Assembly: GCF_000488215.1 (NCBI RefSeq)
Contig: NZ_KI530712.1
Location: 1,182,881 to 1,246,880, forward strand
Direction of reading: 5' to 3'
Source: Acinetobacter nectaris CIP 110549
GTDB taxonomy: Bacteria > Pseudomonadota > Gammaproteobacteria > Pseudomonadales > Moraxellaceae
Length of the DNA stretch: 64,000 bases
The notes under the pieces were generated by a model. That model ran no database searches and was not told the DNA's origin. It saw only the letters and a list, made by a program, of their open reading frames with translations. The translations under genes were made by a program, and so were the position numbers. Within the stretch, counting starts at the first letter, position 1. Every line of letters starts with the position of its first letter. Below, one piece after another: positions 27,351-55,803 of this stretch.

Positions 27351-27733
27351 GGCTTCCTCTATTTACTTAACTGGTTAGTAGTAACAATTTTTAAAAAGTG
27401 CCACATTATATTCTATAGCAACAAGATATACAAAGTTTTGCTCATTTTTTGTATTTAGTAGCACACTTTACAAATATGTAGATCAAATTTCATACTGCAT
27501 ATTTAACTTAAATAAGAATTAATAACATTTAAATTATTGATGAATAATAATTCTTATTTCAATAAAAGTTATTGTTAAATAAAATGAACTCTATATTACT
27601 AATATTTATATTTTTTTTATAAAAAATACTACTTTTCATACAATTTTCATTCATTTAAGTTACTTAACGTATAGCTAACTTAACAATAATCATTATTATT
27701 TAGAAAATACTTACATTCATTTACGAGTAAAAC
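27351..27733. promoter_or_regulatory. Divergent promoter region, tig / siderophore receptor
   Basis: 383 bp without a gene, very AT-rich, carrying the tig promoter on the minus strand and the receptor promoter on the plus strand. A Fur-like site lies at 27679-27697. Further ATAATTCTTATT-type imperfect repeats near 27541-27560 could be weaker Fur contacts. Confidence 0.55.
27679..27697 (+). promoter_or_regulatory. Putative Fur box upstream of siderophore receptor 1
   Basis: 14 of 19 bases agree with the GATAATGATAATCATTATC consensus, including an unbroken ATAATCATTAT. It sits 37 bp before the receptor's ATG at 27734, where Fur-Fe would repress transcription in iron-rich conditions. Confidence 0.65.
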
Positions 27734-30019
27734 ATGTCATTTATAAAGACTCGCAAAAAAATTGTTACCTCAACAATTGCCTCTTCCCTCTCTATTATTG
27801 CAGGCCATGCAATTGCTCAAGATAATACAAATCAACTACCTACAATAGATTTGCACTCTTCTGCTGCTGTCGACTATGACGATACACAAAGCTTTAAAAC
27901 AGATAAGTCTTCAAATTCAAAATATGTTGCCCCACTTTTAGATACTCCTAAAAGCGTAAATGTAATCTCACAAAAATTATTAGCAGATACTAACTCCAAC
28001 ACCCTTACGGAAGCATTACAAAACACACCAGGCGTTACACTTGCTGCGGGTGAAGGCGGAACACCATTTACAGATATGCCATATATTCGTGGCTATAGCG
28101 CACAATCATCAATTTATATAGATGGTATTCGAAACTCAGTATCTCAAAACCGTGATATGTTCGATGTTGAAAAAGTTGAAGTCACTAAAGGTTCTAGTTC
28201 TGCAATTTCTGGTGGTGGTGGTGCAGGCGGTAGCATTAACCTCATCACAAAAGAAGCACATGCAGGCGATAAATATGAAGGTACAATTGCAGGTGGTACA
28301 GCCGATTACCGACATATTAGCTTAGATGCAAACAAAGACTTTGGTAATGGTATTGCAGGTCGTGTTGTTGTTATGGGTCACCAAAATGATAAACCTGGTG
28401 AACAAAATGGCGCTGAGTATAATCGTATAGGTATTGCACCAAGCATTGTCTTTGGTCTAGGTACGCCAACAAGAGCACGTTTAAGCTATTACTACATACA
28501 AAGCGATGACAAACCCGATGCAGGTATTCCATTCCCAACAACAGGTGGTGCACCTTACAATGTAGCAAGAGGAACTTACTACGGTTGGAAAGGAAGGGAC
28601 TTCGACCGTCGTCAAAATCAGGTTGGAACATTTAAGTTAGATCATGACTTTAATGACGATCTGAACCTATCCAATACCTTTAACTACAACTACGCATCTA
28701 GCAATTACATTATGACGAATCCAGATGATTCTCAGGGTAATATTAGCAAGTATGGAAGTGTTTTCCGCCGCGCTGTTAGCCAGATTTCTTCGACCAATGC
28801 ATATAGCGATCAAATGGCACTATCAGGAAAGTTTAATACTGGTGGCATAAAACATAGCTTTAGCACAGGTGCGGACTGGACATATCAAGAAACAGATACT
28901 GGTATTTATTCATTTAATGGATTTAATCCCAACAAAAGTTTAGATATTCAAGATCAAACAAATAATGGTAGCTCTGAAAGCTGTAAAAATCCAAACCTAG
29001 GATATTGTACAACTTTAAACAACCCAAACCCTTACGATACTTATAGTGACAAAGCAACGGCCGTTAAAGACTTTGCAACAACACGCAACCGTAATGTAGG
29101 TTTATATGCTTTAGATAGCATAGAATTTACCCCGCAATGGCTATTAAACTTAGGATTACGTTGGGATCAATTTAATACAAGTATTAAGTATAACTACCCA
29201 ATAACTCTACGAGGCACACAATATACAGCTGGACAAGGTGCATCTAATAATAAAAGCTTCTTCTCTTATCAAGCAGGTTTAGTATTTAAACCAACTGAAA
29301 ATGGCAGTATTTATGCAAGTTTTGCAACCTCTGCTATTCCAGTTGGTTCAGATCAATTCGACCAAACAGCAACAAGTGCAATTATTTCAGCAAATGATTT
29401 GAAACCTGAAGAAGCCCGTACTTATGAGGTAGGTACAAAGTGGAATGTTCTAGATAACAAGGCAAACTTAACTGCTGCAGTATTTAGAACTGAGAAACAA
29501 AATACACGTATCGGTGTTACAAATACAACAACAGGTATCACAACACTTTCAAATGTAGGGACAAGTCATGTAAATGGCTTTGAACTCGGACTTAATGGTA
29601 ATCTAACTGATAAATGGGATATTTCAGCAGGATACAGTTACTTAGACAGCAAGCTTACTAGAACTTCTCCTGACCTTAAATCTCTTGCAGGGTTAGGCAA
29701 AGCACTTCCTTATGTTTCAAAAAACAGTGCTACTTTATGGACAACGTATAAAGTGCTACCAAAACTGACTGTTGGCATTGGCTCACAATACAATGAGCGC
29801 TCTGTTGTATCTTATGTTGCAAATAGTTCACTACCAAAATATATTCCAACTTATACCATCTACAACACGATGCTGAAATATAATGTGAATGACAATATTA
29901 ACTTACAACTTAACGTAAACAATATTACAGACAAACGCTACTACTCTACTGGCCACTATCACTATGCAATGCAAGGTGATGGGCGTAATGCAGTACTTGC
30001 CTTGAACTTTAAATACTAA
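27734..30019 (+). CDS. TonB-dependent siderophore receptor (catecholate/Fiu type), copy 1
   Basis: 761 residues. Signal peptide about 1-28 (GHAIAQ), then a plug domain with LDTPKSVNVISQKLL (about 70-84), LTEALQNTPGV, the GEGGTPFTDMPYIRGY segment and VEVTKGSSSAISGGGGAGGSINLITK (about 147-172), and a 22-strand outer-membrane barrel ending in NAVLALNFKY with a C-terminal aromatic. Layout and motifs fit Fiu/PiuA-type receptors for ferric catechol siderophores. It is behind a Fur-like site and followed by a strong terminator. The exact ligand is not determinable. Confidence 0.9.
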   Translation: MSFIKTRKKIVTSTIASSLSIIAGHAIAQDNTNQLPTIDLHSSAAVDYDDTQSFKTDKSSNSKYVAPLLDTPKSVNVISQKLLADTNSNTLTEALQNTPGVTLAAGEGGTPFTDMPYIRGYSAQSSIYIDGIRNSVSQNRDMFDVEKVEVTKGSSSAISGGGGAGGSINLITKEAHAGDKYEGTIAGGTADYRHISLDANKDFGNGIAGRVVVMGHQNDKPGEQNGAEYNRIGIAPSIVFGLGTPTRARLSYYYIQSDDKPDAGIPFPTTGGAPYNVARGTYYGWKGRDFDRRQNQVGTFKLDHDFNDDLNLSNTFNYNYASSNYIMTNPDDSQGNISKYGSVFRRAVSQISSTNAYSDQMALSGKFNTGGIKHSFSTGADWTYQETDTGIYSFNGFNPNKSLDIQDQTNNGSSESCKNPNLGYCTTLNNPNPYDTYSDKATAVKDFATTRNRNVGLYALDSIEFTPQWLLNLGLRWDQFNTSIKYNYPITLRGTQYTAGQGASNNKSFFSYQAGLVFKPTENGSIYASFATSAIPVGSDQFDQTATSAIISANDLKPEEARTYEVGTKWNVLDNKANLTAAVFRTEKQNTRIGVTNTTTGITTLSNVGTSHVNGFELGLNGNLTDKWDISAGYSYLDSKLTRTSPDLKSLAGLGKALPYVSKNSATLWTTYKVLPKLTVGIGSQYNERSVVSYVANSSLPKYIPTYTIYNTMLKYNVNDNINLQLNVNNITDKRYYSTGHYHYAMQGDGRNAVLALNFKY

Positions 30020-30031
30020 TCAAAACTACAT

Positions 30032-30066
30032 AAAAAAGCCCATCATTAAAAATGATGGGCTTTTTT
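30032..30066. terminator. Strong bidirectional terminator after receptor 1
   Basis: A 16-bp perfect stem (30032-30047 with 30051-30066), A6 on one side and T6 on the other, loop of three. It serves both the receptor and the convergent histidine-rich gene. Confidence 0.92.
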
Positions 30067-30078
30067 ATAATAGCAATA

Positions 30079-30408
30079 TTATTTCTTAACAACCTCAATT
30101 GGCCCATGATTGTCACAATGACCATCGTGTTGATGATGCAAATGACCATCTACTAAATAGTCTATATGATCCCCATGAGGTACAGCCTCATGACCACAAT
30201 CTGGTCCATGTACATGACCTTTTTCATGCCCTGAACATTCATGTCCTTGCGTGCATTCTGCAGGATTTTTTCCGTCTACAGAAATTTTATGTTCCTCTTT
30301 CGAGTCACTTTGTAAATGACCATTAACCAAATAGTCTACATGGTCTTCATGCTTAATTGCTGTATGCCCACAACTTTCGCCATGAACATGATTTTTTTCA
30401 ATACTCAT
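30079..30408 (-). CDS. Histidine/cysteine-rich duplicated protein, probable metal binder
   Basis: 109 residues with 20 His and 5 Cys. Two 26-residue repeats (7-32 and 65-90) of pattern HVHGxxCGHxAxxHxDH followed by DYLVxGHL agree at 18 positions. They are joined by a Lys/Glu-rich linker with ECTQGHECSGHE, and a further HHQHDGHCDNHG cluster ends the protein. There is no signal peptide or membrane helix, so it should be cytoplasmic. Binding of zinc, nickel or a similar metal is a strong inference from composition; no enzymatic motif is seen. It sits convergent to receptor 1 in an iron-uptake block. Start ATG 30408. Confidence 0.75.
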   Translation of the reverse strand: MSIEKNHVHGESCGHTAIKHEDHVDYLVNGHLQSDSKEEHKISVDGKNPAECTQGHECSGHEKGHVHGPDCGHEAVPHGDHIDYLVDGHLHHQHDGHCDNHGPIEVVKK

Positions 30409-30905
30409 TTACACAACCCTCATTATAATTTGAACATTTTATATACTACACATCTACATTAGCATAAAATTTAATTGTTGCAATCTCACACCTACCCAAA
30501 ATTAATTTACTTATTTTTTATAAAAAGAAAGTTTCCGATGTAGAAATTTAGAGTTTTATTTCCATAGCAACAATATCAATTTCTCAGATCCAAAAATTAT
30601 CATTCTTGTATACAACTCTAAAAATAGATCAAAGCCACAAATAGATAAATATAGTTTTTAACTAATAGTTTTATTAAGAATTCCTTAGGTTAATTTACTC
30701 AACATTGTTAGTTTCAATCAAAAATTAAATTACAAACTGTTTCTACAATACAATTACATCATAAATATCAATAATATAAATAAAAGATCTATATAAAATT
30801 ATATTTTGCAAATAAAAGTAATTATCATTTATAATAACATTATCAATACATAGATTAACAATTTGTCTTTATGAATACTTTATTCATACATGAGAGTTTC
30901 AAGAA
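30409..30905. promoter_or_regulatory. Divergent intergenic region, His-rich gene / receptor 2
   Basis: 497 bp, extremely AT-rich, no gene recognised. It must contain the promoters of both flanking genes. AATTATCATT-type half-sites occur near 30591-30604 and at 30818-30844; the latter are the best Fur candidates. No RNA gene recognised. Confidence 0.5.
30818..30844 (+). promoter_or_regulatory. Putative overlapping Fur sites upstream of receptor 2
   Basis: Two overlapping 19-base windows each match the Fur consensus at 11 positions, one carrying CATTATC intact and the other TATCATT. About 60 bp upstream of the ATG at 30906. Weaker than the site at 27679 but in the expected place. Confidence 0.45.
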
Positions 30906-33146
30906 ATGAAGAAAACTATTAAAAAACGTAGTTATACAGCTCAAACTGTAGCACTTGCAATTACACTACCTAATCTTGCATTTGCTGCTGGAAATATTAC
31001 AGACCTACCCACTATTGAAAGTTCTTCACACACAGACAATAGCTACTATAAAAAGAACAGCTCATCAGATAAACGTGCACAATCTATATTAAATACACCT
31101 AGAACAACTCAGGTTATTACTGAAAAAACCCTAAAAGAACAAAACTTACTTTCTTTACAAGATGCCCTCTCCACAACCCCTGGAATTTCTTTTGGAGCAG
31201 GTGAAGGTGGCGGTGGTTACGGCGATAAAATTACACTACGTGGTTATGATGCAACCAGTAATATTACTGCGGATGGTCTTCGAGATACGGCTTTAACAAC
31301 TCGCAGTGACTTATTCAACTATGAAGCGGTAGAAGTCACAAAAGGTGCTAACTCCGTTGAAAATGGCGCAGGACAAGTCAGTGGTGGCATCAATCTTGTC
31401 ACTAAATCTCCAAAAGATCATGATTTTAATAACCTTTCTGTAGGTCTAGGTACAGATGACTACACACGTATTACAGGTGACTTCAATAAAGTTATCAATG
31501 ATGACGTTGCATTTCGCCTAAATGTCATGGGACATAAAAACACATACCCTGGACGTGATGAAGAATTGAAACGTTGGGGTATCGCACCTTCTATTTCTTT
31601 TGGTATTGGCGAAAATACAAAAGCAACCCTTTCATATGTACATCAAGAAGATAACAACGACCCACAGTATGGTGTGCCATACTATAATGGACATGCAGTA
31701 CCAGGTATCTCTAATAAAAATAACTATGGCTATACAGACCTAGATAATATCCGTATTACCAATAATACTGGTTTATTAAAAGTAAAAAGTGAAATCACTG
31801 ACAATATTAAATTTAACTCTGTCACTCGCCTAAGCGACATACACCAAATCTCTACTATTTCAGCACCACAAGGAACGTTTTGTCTTGCAAATGGTATGGC
31901 ACCAACGGCTTACACCAATGCCAACACAACTGGTTATGTTAAATGTACAGCTTCTGGACAGTACATTGTAAGTGGACCACGTGGGTTCAAAAGAGATACC
32001 GAAACAAAGCAACTCGCAAATGACAGTAATTTCAAAATTAATTTTGGTTCAGAGCATATTAGAAATACTCTTATTATTGGCGGTGGTTTTAGCCAAGAAG
32101 ACTATACACTCAAAAGTGGTAGCTACTTAAATAATGCTAATGGTTCAACAAGTACACGTCCAAATATGGATATTTACAACCCAAATCATGTTTGGAATAA
32201 CACTACAAACTATATTCAAGCAGATAGTCGCAGTGGATCAGGTAGCTTAGACACTTATTACGGTTATATTTTTAATAACACTAAATTTGGTTCGCATTGG
32301 TTACTTGATTTAGGCGCACGTTACGACCGTACAGACGGTGTATATCGTGATATCAATGGTGCGGTTACTGGTTCACAGAATGCCAATCTATTTAGCTATA
32401 ATGGTGCAATCACTTTTAAACCAACCCATTCAACAAGCTTATATATTAGCTATGCTAACTCTCAAAAACCAACCATTGGTATAGCGAGCGAAACATGTAC
32501 AAGTAGTGCAGCAAATAATACATGTAATGTTAAACCAGAAAGTGCTGTTACTTATGAAATAGGCGCAAAATGGGAAGTAAACCCTAACCTACTTCTTACA
32601 ATTGCAGGGTTTAGAAATGAGCGTAATAAAGTACGAATCCAAGGCGCAGATGGCTTTAACTACGTGCTAGATGGTAAAAACTATGTAAATGGTGTTGAGG
32701 CTGGTCTTGTTGGAAATATTACACCAAACTGGGATATTACAGCGAGTATGGCTTGGATGAAAGGCAAGTTTAATCAAACTGCCGCTAATGGAGTTCAGGA
32801 CTTCTCTAAAGGAGACTATGTCACACAAGTTCCAGAATACTCGGGAAGTGTATGGACAACTTACAAATTAAATAGTCAATGGCAAGTTGGATACGGCGCA
32901 ACATATCAAGGTAAAATGTACCTAAGTACACATACTTCAGCAAACAACCAAACTGCACAGGTAAAATCTGAAGATTACTTATTACATAACGCATCAATTA
33001 CATACGCAATGAATAAGAGTTTAAATTTCCAACTCATTGGACGCAATCTTGCCAATAAAGTTTACTATACTCATATTCGTAACAATGGTTGGGCTATGCC
33101 AGGCGAAGGGCGACAAGCTGTGTTTAATATTAACTATAATTTCTAA
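30906..33146 (+). CDS. piuA: TonB-dependent siderophore receptor, PiuA/Fiu type, copy 2
   Basis: 746 residues. Signal peptide about 1-27 (PNLAFAA). Plug motifs: ILNTPRTTQVITEKTL (about 60-75), LQDALSTTPGISFGAGEGGGG, ITLRGYDATSNITADGLRD and VEVTKGANSVENGAGQVSGGINLVTK (about 137-162). The barrel ends in GRQAVFNINYNF with terminal Phe. Only 74 bp separate its stop from piuC, the usual partner of PiuA-type receptors, which is the basis for the symbol. PiuA receptors import ferric catechol complexes and, in Acinetobacter and Pseudomonas, siderophore-conjugated beta-lactams. Paralogous to the receptor at 27734. Confidence 0.85.
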   Translation: MKKTIKKRSYTAQTVALAITLPNLAFAAGNITDLPTIESSSHTDNSYYKKNSSSDKRAQSILNTPRTTQVITEKTLKEQNLLSLQDALSTTPGISFGAGEGGGGYGDKITLRGYDATSNITADGLRDTALTTRSDLFNYEAVEVTKGANSVENGAGQVSGGINLVTKSPKDHDFNNLSVGLGTDDYTRITGDFNKVINDDVAFRLNVMGHKNTYPGRDEELKRWGIAPSISFGIGENTKATLSYVHQEDNNDPQYGVPYYNGHAVPGISNKNNYGYTDLDNIRITNNTGLLKVKSEITDNIKFNSVTRLSDIHQISTISAPQGTFCLANGMAPTAYTNANTTGYVKCTASGQYIVSGPRGFKRDTETKQLANDSNFKINFGSEHIRNTLIIGGGFSQEDYTLKSGSYLNNANGSTSTRPNMDIYNPNHVWNNTTNYIQADSRSGSGSLDTYYGYIFNNTKFGSHWLLDLGARYDRTDGVYRDINGAVTGSQNANLFSYNGAITFKPTHSTSLYISYANSQKPTIGIASETCTSSAANNTCNVKPESAVTYEIGAKWEVNPNLLLTIAGFRNERNKVRIQGADGFNYVLDGKNYVNGVEAGLVGNITPNWDITASMAWMKGKFNQTAANGVQDFSKGDYVTQVPEYSGSVWTTYKLNSQWQVGYGATYQGKMYLSTHTSANNQTAQVKSEDYLLHNASITYAMNKSLNFQLIGRNLANKVYYTHIRNNGWAMPGEGRQAVFNINYNF

Positions 33147-33220: not shown

Positions 33221-33904
33221 ATGCTTATACATGTGCCACAATTACTGACTCTAGATAAAATCAATGAATGCAGAAAAATCTTAGAAGTAGCACCATGGGT
33301 TGATGGAAAAACTACAGCAGGACACCAATCTGCAGAATTAAAAAACAATTTACAGCTACCACCAGATTGCGAAGAAAGTCTATTTCTCGGACAAACAATT
33401 TCACAAGCGCTCAAAAGCAATCCAACAGCATTTAGCGCCTCGCTACCTAAAACAATTCTTCCGCCAATGTTTAACTGCTACCAAAATAGTGGTCACTTTG
33501 GTAATCACATTGATAATGCCATTCGCCATCATAGCCTAACCAATACATACATGCGTACAGATGTTTCATGCACTGTGTTTCTTACAAACCCAGACGAATA
33601 TGAAGGTGGAGAACTTATTATTGAAGATACCTATGGTACACATAGCGTCAAACTTCCTGCAGGAGATGCAATTTTATATCCATCAACAAGCTTACACCAA
33701 GTCACACCCGTAACTCGTGGTGCACGTATCTCTTCATTTTTTTGGATCCAAAGCTTTATTCAATCTGATGCGCAAAGACGAATGATGTTTGAACTTGATC
33801 AATCTATCCAATCACTTACACAACAATTAGGCAACAACCATGATGATGTTGTGAAACTGACAGGTTTGTACCATAATTTATTGCGACAATGGAGCGATAT
33901 GTAA
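33221..33904 (+). CDS. piuC: PKHD-type Fe(II)/2-oxoglutarate dioxygenase PiuC
   Basis: 227 residues of the YbiX/PiuC family. The jelly-roll iron ligands are in HFGNHIDNAIRH (HxD, about 96-107) and LHQVTPVTRGAR (distal His and the 2-oxoglutarate-binding Arg, about 158-169); EYEGGELIIEDTYG (about 127-140) is the core strand motif. The C-terminus LTGLYHNLLRQWSDM is typical. Substrate of the hydroxylation is unknown; the gene is linked to siderophore receptors across proteobacteria. It follows receptor 2 on the same strand and is likely co-regulated by iron. Confidence 0.93.
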   Translation: MLIHVPQLLTLDKINECRKILEVAPWVDGKTTAGHQSAELKNNLQLPPDCEESLFLGQTISQALKSNPTAFSASLPKTILPPMFNCYQNSGHFGNHIDNAIRHHSLTNTYMRTDVSCTVFLTNPDEYEGGELIIEDTYGTHSVKLPAGDAILYPSTSLHQVTPVTRGARISSFFWIQSFIQSDAQRRMMFELDQSIQSLTQQLGNNHDDVVKLTGLYHNLLRQWSDM

Positions 33905-53729: not shown

Positions 53730-54134
53730 TTAATGCTCACTTACAAAGGAGATATCACTTAAACCTGCCTCACTTGCGCGAGACATTACCTGTGCAACTG
53801 TATCATAGCGAGACTCTTTATCTGCACGAAGTTGGACAGTTGGTTTTTGTTCAGCAGTACCCGCTTCTTGAAAACGTTTTGCTAACTCATCCAAAGAAAT
53901 CATTTGGTCATTCCAAGCAACTTCTCCTTTGGCATCAATACTGACAGTAATTGCTTTTGGCGGCGGAGTTGTTATTTCCGCTGTCGTTTTGGGTAAAGTC
54001 AGCGGAATTGATGGATTTGCGACAGTCGCTGTAACTAAGAAAATGATCATCAATACCAGCATAATATCGATAAGTGGAATGAGGTTCATCTCATTCATAC
54101 CAGAATCTTGATCTTCACCCAATTGAAAAGCCAT
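53730..54134 (-). CDS. exbD: ExbD, TonB-system motor subunit
   Basis: 134 residues: a single N-terminal helix (about 17-39) carrying the proton-pathway Asp in NLIPLIDIMLVLMIIFL, followed by a periplasmic domain with IPLTLPKTTAE, ITVSIDAKGEVAWND and VQLRADKESRYDTVAQVMSRASEAGL. With ExbB it harvests proton-motive force for TonB. The exbB stop and exbD start overlap by one base, so they are coupled. Confidence 0.93.
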   Translation of the reverse strand: MAFQLGEDQDSGMNEMNLIPLIDIMLVLMIIFLVTATVANPSIPLTLPKTTAEITTPPPKAITVSIDAKGEVAWNDQMISLDELAKRFQEAGTAEQKPTVQLRADKESRYDTVAQVMSRASEAGLSDISFVSEH

Positions 54135-54733
54135 TATGCCTGACCTCCAGTTTGTTTTGATGATATTTGATTTTCTGACAACAACATCGTATCAATAAGT
54201 AAATGATGTGCTTTATCTTGTAAACCATGTGATAGCGAACGATTTGCACGTAAGCAGATGTTATAAGCAAGTACCGCAGGAATTGCAACTGCAAGCCCTA
54301 AACCAGTCATAATGAGTGACTCACCCACAGGGGTTGCAACCTGTGCAAGTCCAGCTTGTCCACTGCTACCGACAGCAACAAGTGCATGAAAAATACCCCA
54401 AACAGTACCAAATAGACCAACAAACGGCGCAAGAGATGCGATTGTGCCTAGTACAGGTACACCTTTTTCAGCAGCAGATTTTTGCTCTGAAATTTCACGC
54501 AATAATGCTTGCTCAGCAACGGCTTTACGCTGATCTAAATCTAAATGCAAAAACTTTGTTTTAAAGGATGCAAGTGACTGCTCTAATTTTGTAAGCGCAT
54601 GCTGTTTTAATTGACGTGTACCTAATAAACGTACAATAAACAATGTCCATGTAATAATAGACATCGTGAGTAGAATAAAGTAAAGCGTTTTACTTACTGC
54701 ATCTGCACTTTGCCAGTAAACTGAAAAGTTCAT
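54134..54733 (-). CDS. exbB: ExbB, TonB-system motor subunit (MotA/TolQ/ExbB family)
   Basis: 199 residues, three membrane helices. The core has LGTIASLAPFVGLFGTVWGIFHALVAVGSSGQAGLAQVATPVGESLIMTGLGLAVAIPAVLAYN (about 105-168, read in parts), the ExbB/TolQ hallmark. Its position between tonB and exbD assigns it to the Ton rather than the Tol system. Start ATG 54733; 39 bp after the tonB stop. Confidence 0.93.
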   Translation of the reverse strand: MNFSVYWQSADAVSKTLYFILLTMSIITWTLFIVRLLGTRQLKQHALTKLEQSLASFKTKFLHLDLDQRKAVAEQALLREISEQKSAAEKGVPVLGTIASLAPFVGLFGTVWGIFHALVAVGSSGQAGLAQVATPVGESLIMTGLGLAVAIPAVLAYNICLRANRSLSHGLQDKAHHLLIDTMLLSENQISSKQTGGQA

Positions 54734-54772: not shown

Positions 54773-55549
54773 TTAAGTTAAATCAAATGGTTGTTGCGCT
54801 TTAATTGGGTAAGCAACGCCATTTTCCATATATGGTTTAAATTTCGCACCACGTACCGCACGTAAGATTTTTTCATCTAACGCAGGTACACCACTACTTT
54901 TCACCACACTTACACTGACAATTTTCCCTTTCTCATCCGCCTCAATTAAAACAACAATTGAACGAGGTTCACCTTTTAAATCGCTTGGCTCATAAGAAGG
55001 CTTAGGTGAGCGGCTCCACTGCACGCCACTGCCACCAATCGTCACATCTTTTGCTGTCTTCTCTGTAGGTTCAGCAGATACAGGTGGTGCTGGAGGTGTA
55101 GGCGCAGGTTTCGGTGCTGGTTCAGGTGTAGGCTCAGGTTGTGGTTTTGTTTCTACATGCGTCACAACAGGTGGAACAGGTACAGGCTGTGGTTTTTCAA
55201 CTTGCTGCACAACTTTCTTCGGCTCTTCAGCCTTTTTCACATGCTGAATCTTTTCCACTTTTTTTGGTGGTGGTGGCAAATCTTTAACAATCTTTACCTC
55301 TTTCACTTCTTTCTTTGGCTTTGGTTTTTCCTTAGGCTCAGGTGGAAGAGGTTTAGGTGGTTGTTGAATCTTAACAAAGTGAACTTGCATTGGCTCTTTA
55401 TGAATTGGCTTAAGCTCAGGTTTTTTCATCTGACCTAAAGCCAATAAAACACCAATGTGCCCTATAACTACTGCCGTAACAGCAATAATCACTTTTTTCT
55501 TCATATTATCAGGAGGAGGGTTCGCATTTAGTACGGAAGAATGACTCAT
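54773..55549 (-). CDS. tonB: TonB energy-transducing protein
   Basis: 258 residues: an N-terminal membrane anchor (about 18-37), a long Pro/Lys/Glu-rich spacer (about 45-160, PKPLPPEPKEKPKPKKEVKEV and repeated PxP) that spans the periplasm, and a C-terminal TonB domain (about 175-258) with YEPSDLKGEPRSIVVLIEADEKGKI and the SSGVPALDEKILRAVRGAKFKP motif. It delivers energy to outer-membrane receptors such as those at 27734 and 30906. First gene of tonB-exbB-exbD; a Fur-like site lies about 93 bp upstream. Confidence 0.94.
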   Translation of the reverse strand: MSHSSVLNANPPPDNMKKKVIIAVTAVVIGHIGVLLALGQMKKPELKPIHKEPMQVHFVKIQQPPKPLPPEPKEKPKPKKEVKEVKIVKDLPPPPKKVEKIQHVKKAEEPKKVVQQVEKPQPVPVPPVVTHVETKPQPEPTPEPAPKPAPTPPAPPVSAEPTEKTAKDVTIGGSGVQWSRSPKPSYEPSDLKGEPRSIVVLIEADEKGKIVSVSVVKSSGVPALDEKILRAVRGAKFKPYMENGVAYPIKAQQPFDLT

Positions 55550-55660: not shown

Positions 55661-55803
55661 TGCAACCTCTTTTAAAAAATCTGTATTTTCCAAAAAGTTA
55701 CGCCAACTTATAAAATATATCTAAATGTATAGTTATAACATAACAAAAAAGATTATATATTCATATAATTATTGTAAATAGTTTTCAATTACTATTTTTT
55801 ATA

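Follow-up and report, generated by a model that had tools for sequence, protein, structure and literature searches.

The 109-residue protein encoded at positions 30079 to 30408 of the window, as we call the whole stretch of 64,000 nucleotides of Acinetobacter nectaris DNA analysed here, has relatives in many bacterial phyla that share its two His/Cys-rich repeats, and we consider it rather likely to bind zinc in the cytoplasm as a folded, His-dominated buffer or store of this metal. Since these relatives often adjoin a zinc-sensing switch, the protein probably holds zinc in the cell rather than serving the iron genes among which it lies. We infer zinc binding, buffering and stoichiometry as well as operon transcription. 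The gene and the parts of its product are as follows.

30079..30408, minus strand: gene of the two-repeat His/Cys protein, 109 residues, ATG start (from the ORF list, composition and alignment)
30313..30390, minus strand: repeat 1, residues 7-32, with H7, H9, C13 and H15, followed by H20, H23 and D25; predicted strands 16-20, 23-28 and 31-33
30139..30216, minus strand: core of repeat 2, residues 65-90, with H65, H67, C71 and H73, followed by H78, H81 and D83; predicted strands 74-78 and 81-86
30085..30138, minus strand: distal strands of repeat 2, residues 91-108, with H91, H92, H94, H97, C98, D99 and H101; predicted strands 89-94, 97-103 and 105-108

As an earlier sequence-only reading of this DNA had claimed, the protein contains 20 His and 5 Cys among its 109 residues, and residues 7-32 and 65-90 form two 26-residue repeats in which 18 of the 26 letters are equal. 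When the same residues were shuffled 1000 times, the best 26-residue self-match had a mean of 6.9 and a maximum of 11 compared to the 18 of the real protein, and BLASTP aligns repeat 1 with repeat 2 at E = 2e-12. No hydrophobic or signal-like N-terminus is seen in the sequence of the window protein, which agrees with the export signal having been reported as absent. Repeat 1 of the window protein lacks the distal strand carrying H..H that is present in most relatives.

The window protein carries both units of the family pattern HxHG..CGH....H..H.DY...GHL. This repeat extends as HHxHxDHxDEH in most relatives, and the window copy lacks the extension in repeat 1 alone. Duplicate loci of one gene (L001, L019-L021, L033-L042) and the viral fragments L124 and L125 were excluded before counting; the 109 remaining loci include both L069 and L015, which represent one genome, and the counts on 107 members were also made without L015, the single-repeat L010 and L007, whose first repeat was missed by the pattern. 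Among 85 members, 15 columns are invariant. Eleven of them are His or Cys (nine His and one Cys in repeat 1, repeat 2 adding further His), and the remaining four are two Gly, an Asp and a Tyr. In the larger set, H13, H15, C19, H21, H26, H29, D31, C61, H82, H87, H90, H103 and H106 (L069 numbering) are kept in 107/107 members, where C61 is no longer invariant once L007, which stands outside this set and lacks it, is counted. Of the remaining ligand-type positions above 70%, most are retained by more than 100 of the 107 members. These many His, Cys and Asp residues that are invariant or nearly so in 85-107 relatives support the earlier proposal of a regular metal site in each repeat.

Repeat 2 is the stricter conserved half of the family. 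The distal H..H of repeat 1 is absent by pattern in 33/107 members, among them many Planctomycetota, the window copy and its counterpart in the sister species G129 (there are 34 pattern-negative rows, of which L089 keeps the motif by eye, and 73 rows that are positive by pattern alone), and it is not a strict family criterion. From the pair of window and G129 copies, the HH that follows GHL and the His that precedes the DG turn have been lost as well. Judged from its sequence, the window copy is expected to hold fewer metal sites than canonical members.

AlphaFold models computed with 60 aligned sequences and no metal reached a pLDDT of 83.8 and a pTM of 0.76 for the window protein, and of 85.1 and 0.78 for its relative from A. 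rathckeae. The predicted architecture consists of two small beta-meanders whose strands are mostly linked via two-residue turns; in the A. rathckeae model the strands comprise residues 22-26, 29-34, 37-41 and 46-49 in the first half, and 83-87, 90-95, 98-103, 106-112 and 114-116 in the second. In the window protein H78, H81, H94 and H97, all of them invariant, would lie side by side across adjacent strands on one face, an arrangement derived from predicted strand borders and turn lengths and not from atom coordinates. D83, H92 and D99 would form the next row on these strands, and H65, H67, C71 and H73 a second cluster. Repeat 1 of the window protein retains just H20 and H23 of the corresponding His row. 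Each repeat may thus be pictured as a small beta-meander in which an HxH..CxH cluster and a His/Asp row across adjacent strands would serve as metal sites. Foldseek and VIA-align returned no significant PDB match for either model (best Z 2.1), and searching the PDB by sequence at E 1 or 10 gave none beyond one chance-level match at E 0.37. Absence of a fold match is no proof of a new fold.

The streptococcal histidine triad domain (PhtA, PDB 2cs7; PF04270) is likewise a short His-rich zinc fold, and the HGDHxxY string of the two-repeat protein resembles, as we assume, the histidine triad motif. PDB 2cs7 appears in the Foldseek list of the A. rathckeae model at E 8.3 and a TM score of 0.14 on the query, and no pair reached Z 2 in a structural alignment of 23 chains. 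PF04270 is absent among the families found for 60 members at E 10 and has no match at the window gene, and the two-repeat protein differs from this domain in having no export signal. Elsewhere in the source genome, a 375-residue frame contains a weak Strep_his_triad match below the cut-off (E 0.0089; L148, G000:C26:6076-6168).

None of 60 members matches a curated Pfam or NCBIfam model at E 0.01, Pfam at E 10 yields just weak sub-threshold names for them, and 0/60 match PHROG. We found no paper on a two-repeat His/Cys family in the open-licence PMC literature, and term searches of PMC5387054, PMC5346208 and PMC4176598 brought up nothing recognisable as this protein. Within the searches made, the two-repeat family is apparently without name, model or paper. 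A Rhodococcus plasmid protein of about 50 residues (WP_125053458, locus L010) contains the same repeat in one copy compared to two in the window protein, which suggests from sequence that the repeat unit can stand alone. Its label 'zinc transporter permease' is unfit for a protein of this length without membrane segments.

The family is widely spread. A profile scan of GTDB genomes confirmed at least 532 related stretches among 597 pattern matches, and the best 80 of these come from Planctomycetota, Acidobacteriota, several Proteobacteria classes, Myxococcota, Gemmatimonadota, Verrucomicrobiota and others; ranked by similarity to a query that the window protein heads, these 80 loci are a non-random sample. 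On plasmids, tblastn found 15 records ranging from Pantoea and Paraburkholderia to Pediococcus, Streptomyces and Rhodococcus, with 44-68% identity over the matched part, and three loci with relatives lie on viral contigs, one of them a full-length match. With the window protein as query the gene was found in 8/149 Acinetobacter genomes and in 12/369 genomes of the class, and with alignment A2 as query in 7/398 genomes of the phylum, the source genome being included each time. It is also present in A. rathckeae (NZ_VTDO01000002.1). In a short and poorly resolved tree of 107 members, again without L010, L007 and L015, three changes are required to account for the Acinetobacter copies, and well-supported branches force two or more of these; the window and G129 copies pair with a support of 100/99. 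Since the tree requires these changes and the spread is patchy, the sequences point to lateral transfer into Acinetobacter, with losses as the alternative. The window copy is an orphan whose first repeat is shortened, and it was probably acquired by lateral transfer.

The gene next to many relatives encodes an ArsR/SmtB-type regulator. Gene calls on the best 80 loci place an ArsR-type gene immediately upstream, in the same orientation, in 37 and fused in frame in 5; it lies elsewhere in 2, is absent in 34, and 2 loci end at a contig edge. Six-frame reading raises the loci with an ArsR/SmtB-type domain upstream or fused to 54/80 and leaves 26/80 without one upstream, 2 of these at a contig edge. 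Across the 109 loci 49 ArsR proteins were called, 42 adjacent, 5 fused and 2 in other positions, and the 47/49 that are adjacent or fused provide a partial internal control, as the ArsR profile derives from partner-type regulators and may undercount other ArsR kinds. The DxHx10HxxE signature is present in 39/42 adjacent, 4/5 fused and 2/2 other regulators, a tally of the 49 gene-called regulators without those added by six-frame reading. PMC8790569 describes this as the alpha5 signature of SmtB-like sensors, and alpha5 members as sensing Zn, Cu, Co and Ni; it therefore speaks for zinc, while cobalt, nickel or copper would also be compatible with it. Aligned adjacent regulators (42) further show an N-terminal Cys in 31/33 rows with a letter at this position, a His in 28/33 and a later-helix Cys in 33/42, conserved residues that recall the second (alpha3N) site of SmtB.

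Like SmtB-SmtA and BxmR-BmtA, many relatives thus combine a small metal-ligand-rich protein with an alpha5-type SmtB sensor encoded beside it. PMC8790569 also describes metallothioneins as Cys-rich and their genes as lying in operons or divergons with such regulators or at a distance from them. Cys dominates in SmtA-type metallothionein, whereas the protein described here has 20 His, 5 Cys, a two-fold repeat and a predicted beta fold, and its membership of this group fails on composition, on profile match and on the regulator neighbouring the window copy. By analogy with SmtB-SmtA, zinc in excess would, in these many relatives, derepress its own sink. The sequence-only reading had proposed that the protein buffers or senses zinc, nickel or iron in the cytoplasm: cytoplasmic metal handling gains support from the SmtB-type sensor genes beside many relatives, zinc is favoured among the metals, and a sensing role is less likely since a separate sensor gene often adjoins.

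The SmtB-type operator TGAR-N6-YTCA was found in 5/47 ArsR-linked regions compared to a shuffle mean of 1.2 and a maximum of 5, which by count lies within chance. Upstream of arsR in the Acidobacteria loci L044, L070 and L084 we observed the inverted repeat TTGAAyAGTTrTTCAAGTGAA, a candidate SmtB-type operator; these loci are related and may share it through descent. Its portion TTGAAyAGTTrTTCAA presumably resembles the Synechococcus smt site, and a literature search with the letters of that site returned nothing related.

An SmtB-type regulator beside the gene is absent in the window and at the gene in its congeners. A distant partner regulator for the window gene was considered and rejected, as 0/5 ArsR proteins tested in the source genome carry the alpha5 signature; 3 further weak PF01022 matches in this genome did not fit the partner profile. 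With the partner from L022 as query, the best proteins in the gene-bearing congeners were 28-31% identical, and 2/8 of these genomes gave none.

A second kind of regulation may apply in some lineages. The Zur-type box GTTATAnTATAAC, with at most one mismatch, was detected in 3/47 ArsR-linked upstream regions (shuffle mean 0.0, maximum 0) and in 2/60 other upstream regions (shuffle mean 0.08, maximum 1), hence in 5/107 regions scanned; the 60 regions counted as having no ArsR follow the gene calls and include loci with a regulator by six-frame reading. A looser Zur pattern, at 2/60 other regions, equals the shuffle maximum of 2 and gives no excess. The boxes upstream of the gene in the Acinetobacter genomes G077 and G032 are the sole such sites in 15.0 and 14.7 kb. 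Of the 7 other congeners with the gene, just 2 carry a box at it; none is present in the congener loci L126, L127 and L129, and that of L128 lies far from the gene. The L120 box separates the gene pair from a divergent Fur-family gene and that of L112 precedes a divergent porin gene, and each may serve the divergent gene instead. The source genome has two perfect Zur boxes between znuA and a divergent 163-residue frame, a putative Zur by reading. Zur control of the window gene itself was rejected, as no Zur-like site with 3 or fewer mismatches lies in its upstream region (30380-30900).

A Zur box implies that a gene is expressed when zinc is short, which is a poor fit with a detoxifying buffer. 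The protein might be a zinc reserve or metallochaperone for shortage that is made on Zur release and holds zinc or hands it to CobW-type (COG0523) GTPases or client enzymes, an alternative that we regard as unlikely but worth weighing. Besides the boxes in the two Acinetobacter species, it is favoured by zinc-related neighbours: the best 80 loci include CobW-type genes in 6, ZnuA in 2, ABC-3 in 2 and DUF1826 in 4, and CobW, ZnuA, ABC-3, ZIP, DUF1826 or Fur-family genes together occur in 12/80, a count without background rate in which a Fur-family gene need not be Zur. On a Paraburkholderia plasmid the gene lies beside ZnuABC-like genes and a gene for a GTP-binding protein on the other strand. 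COG0523 proteins share neighbourhoods with the two-repeat gene and, according to PMC2770081, contain His stretches as the two-repeat protein does; they differ in that the latter has no GTPase domain and no sequence relation to them. Against a role confined to shortage, the prevailing partner is an SmtB-type sensor, which is expected to act on zinc excess, and the boxes are few, two of them next to divergent genes. Judging by the boxes, the protein may serve some lineages as a reserve or donor when zinc is scarce, and one zinc buffer would be compatible with both uses, in excess and in shortage.

The protein could also be an accessory of the SmtB sensor, either setting its metal threshold or stripping it of metal, with the occasional single polypeptide as a consequence. 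The five in-frame ArsR fusions among the best 80 loci (L073, L074, L076, L101 and L122), two from Planctomycetota and two from Alphaproteobacteria, speak for this role, although they are candidates in which sequencing errors at the junction are possible. Copies without an upstream partner are however common among these loci, and the window copy, which is outside the 80, lacks one too; we consider an accessory role improbable.

The immediate surroundings of the window gene, which is solitary and preceded by a long intergenic region (30409-30905), are those of an iron-uptake neighbourhood.

27734..30019, plus strand: convergent TonB-dependent receptor, a neighbour judged to be outside the system
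30029..30069, minus strand: terminator-like hairpin of 19 pairs between the 3' side of the window gene and the convergent receptor
30430..30452, minus strand: promoter-proximal stretch common to the sister species G129, TGTGTAGTwTATAAAATGTkCAA
30906..33146, plus strand: divergent TonB-dependent receptor, a neighbour
33221-33904: PKHD-type hydroxylase gene after the second receptor

Two terminator-like sites were found in 29900-31000, compared to 0.1 expected from shuffles. The gene had been described as convergent to a Fur-controlled receptor; the convergence is correct, while Fur control is weakly supported, as the best Fur-like site before the first receptor (position 27679) has 5/19 mismatches to the Fur consensus. 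Across the 64 kb, 6 positions reach at most 5 mismatches to this consensus, and between the window gene and the second receptor the best sites have 6/19.

An iron buffer or iron sensor of the neighbouring siderophore-receptor block would fit the position of the gene between two TonB-dependent receptors, and the order receptor, gene, receptor, hydroxylase is common to the window and G129. A ferritin-like gene precedes the His-rich gene in G020, and in Hyphomicrobium (L099) it comes after a TonB-dependent receptor and a Fur-family gene. In G129, however, about 2.7 kb of other genes (L126 5757-8441) separate the first receptor from the His-rich gene, compared to about 60 bases in the window, and in six other congeners that carry the gene, its surroundings yielded neither receptor. 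Among these genes between receptor and His-rich gene in G129 are one of the glutathionylspermidine-synthase family and one of the small multidrug-resistance family. The second receptor was detected at E 1e-100 in 1/38 genomes, the source genome itself (G129 was outside that sample). Since the receptors were not found around the gene in the six congeners and extra genes intervene in G129, there is no evidence that the gene belongs to an iron-uptake block. Together with the mismatched Fur-like sites this makes an iron function very doubtful, and the iron-uptake surroundings look incidental; of the metals named in the earlier reading, iron is hinted at just by the surroundings in the window and in G129, and nickel just by the urease-type neighbours of one Acinetobacter group.

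In a more distant part of the window, a perfect Zur-type box, GTTATAACATAAC, is located at 55732-55744, upstream of a TonB-type gene on the minus strand (54773-55549) and of a gene of the MotA/TolQ/ExbB family (54134-54733). Receptors of the outer membrane might thus be supplied with energy under zinc control.

A nickel store for urease is suggested by UreF and UreG-like genes (the latter named by a CobW/HypB/UreG profile and their position beside UreF) that A. rathckeae and G099 carry upstream in the same orientation, and by a UreF-type gene and similar DNA before the gene in G148, but is highly improbable given that this arrangement is confined to one Acinetobacter group and 1/80 best loci, and that SmtB-type sensors or zinc-type genes accompany the gene in other relatives.

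Returning to the zinc buffer as the preferred reading, to our knowledge few bacterial zinc stores are known besides metallothioneins. We tentatively propose, as a bolder view that may well not hold in full, that the family represents a widespread undescribed class of bacterial zinc-storage proteins with a new fold, in which a beta-meander repeat with His aligned across strands would replace the Cys-based metallothionein, and which would have spread between phyla as a putative two-gene cassette with its own SmtB-type sensor, sometimes fused to it. By analogy, its way of working resembles that of a bacterial metallothionein with its repressor. The family occurs in Proteobacteria, Planctomycetota, Acidobacteriota, Myxococcota and others, often has a clear sensor partner and is directly testable, and its recognition could supersede annotations like 'hypothetical protein' or 'zinc transporter permease'.
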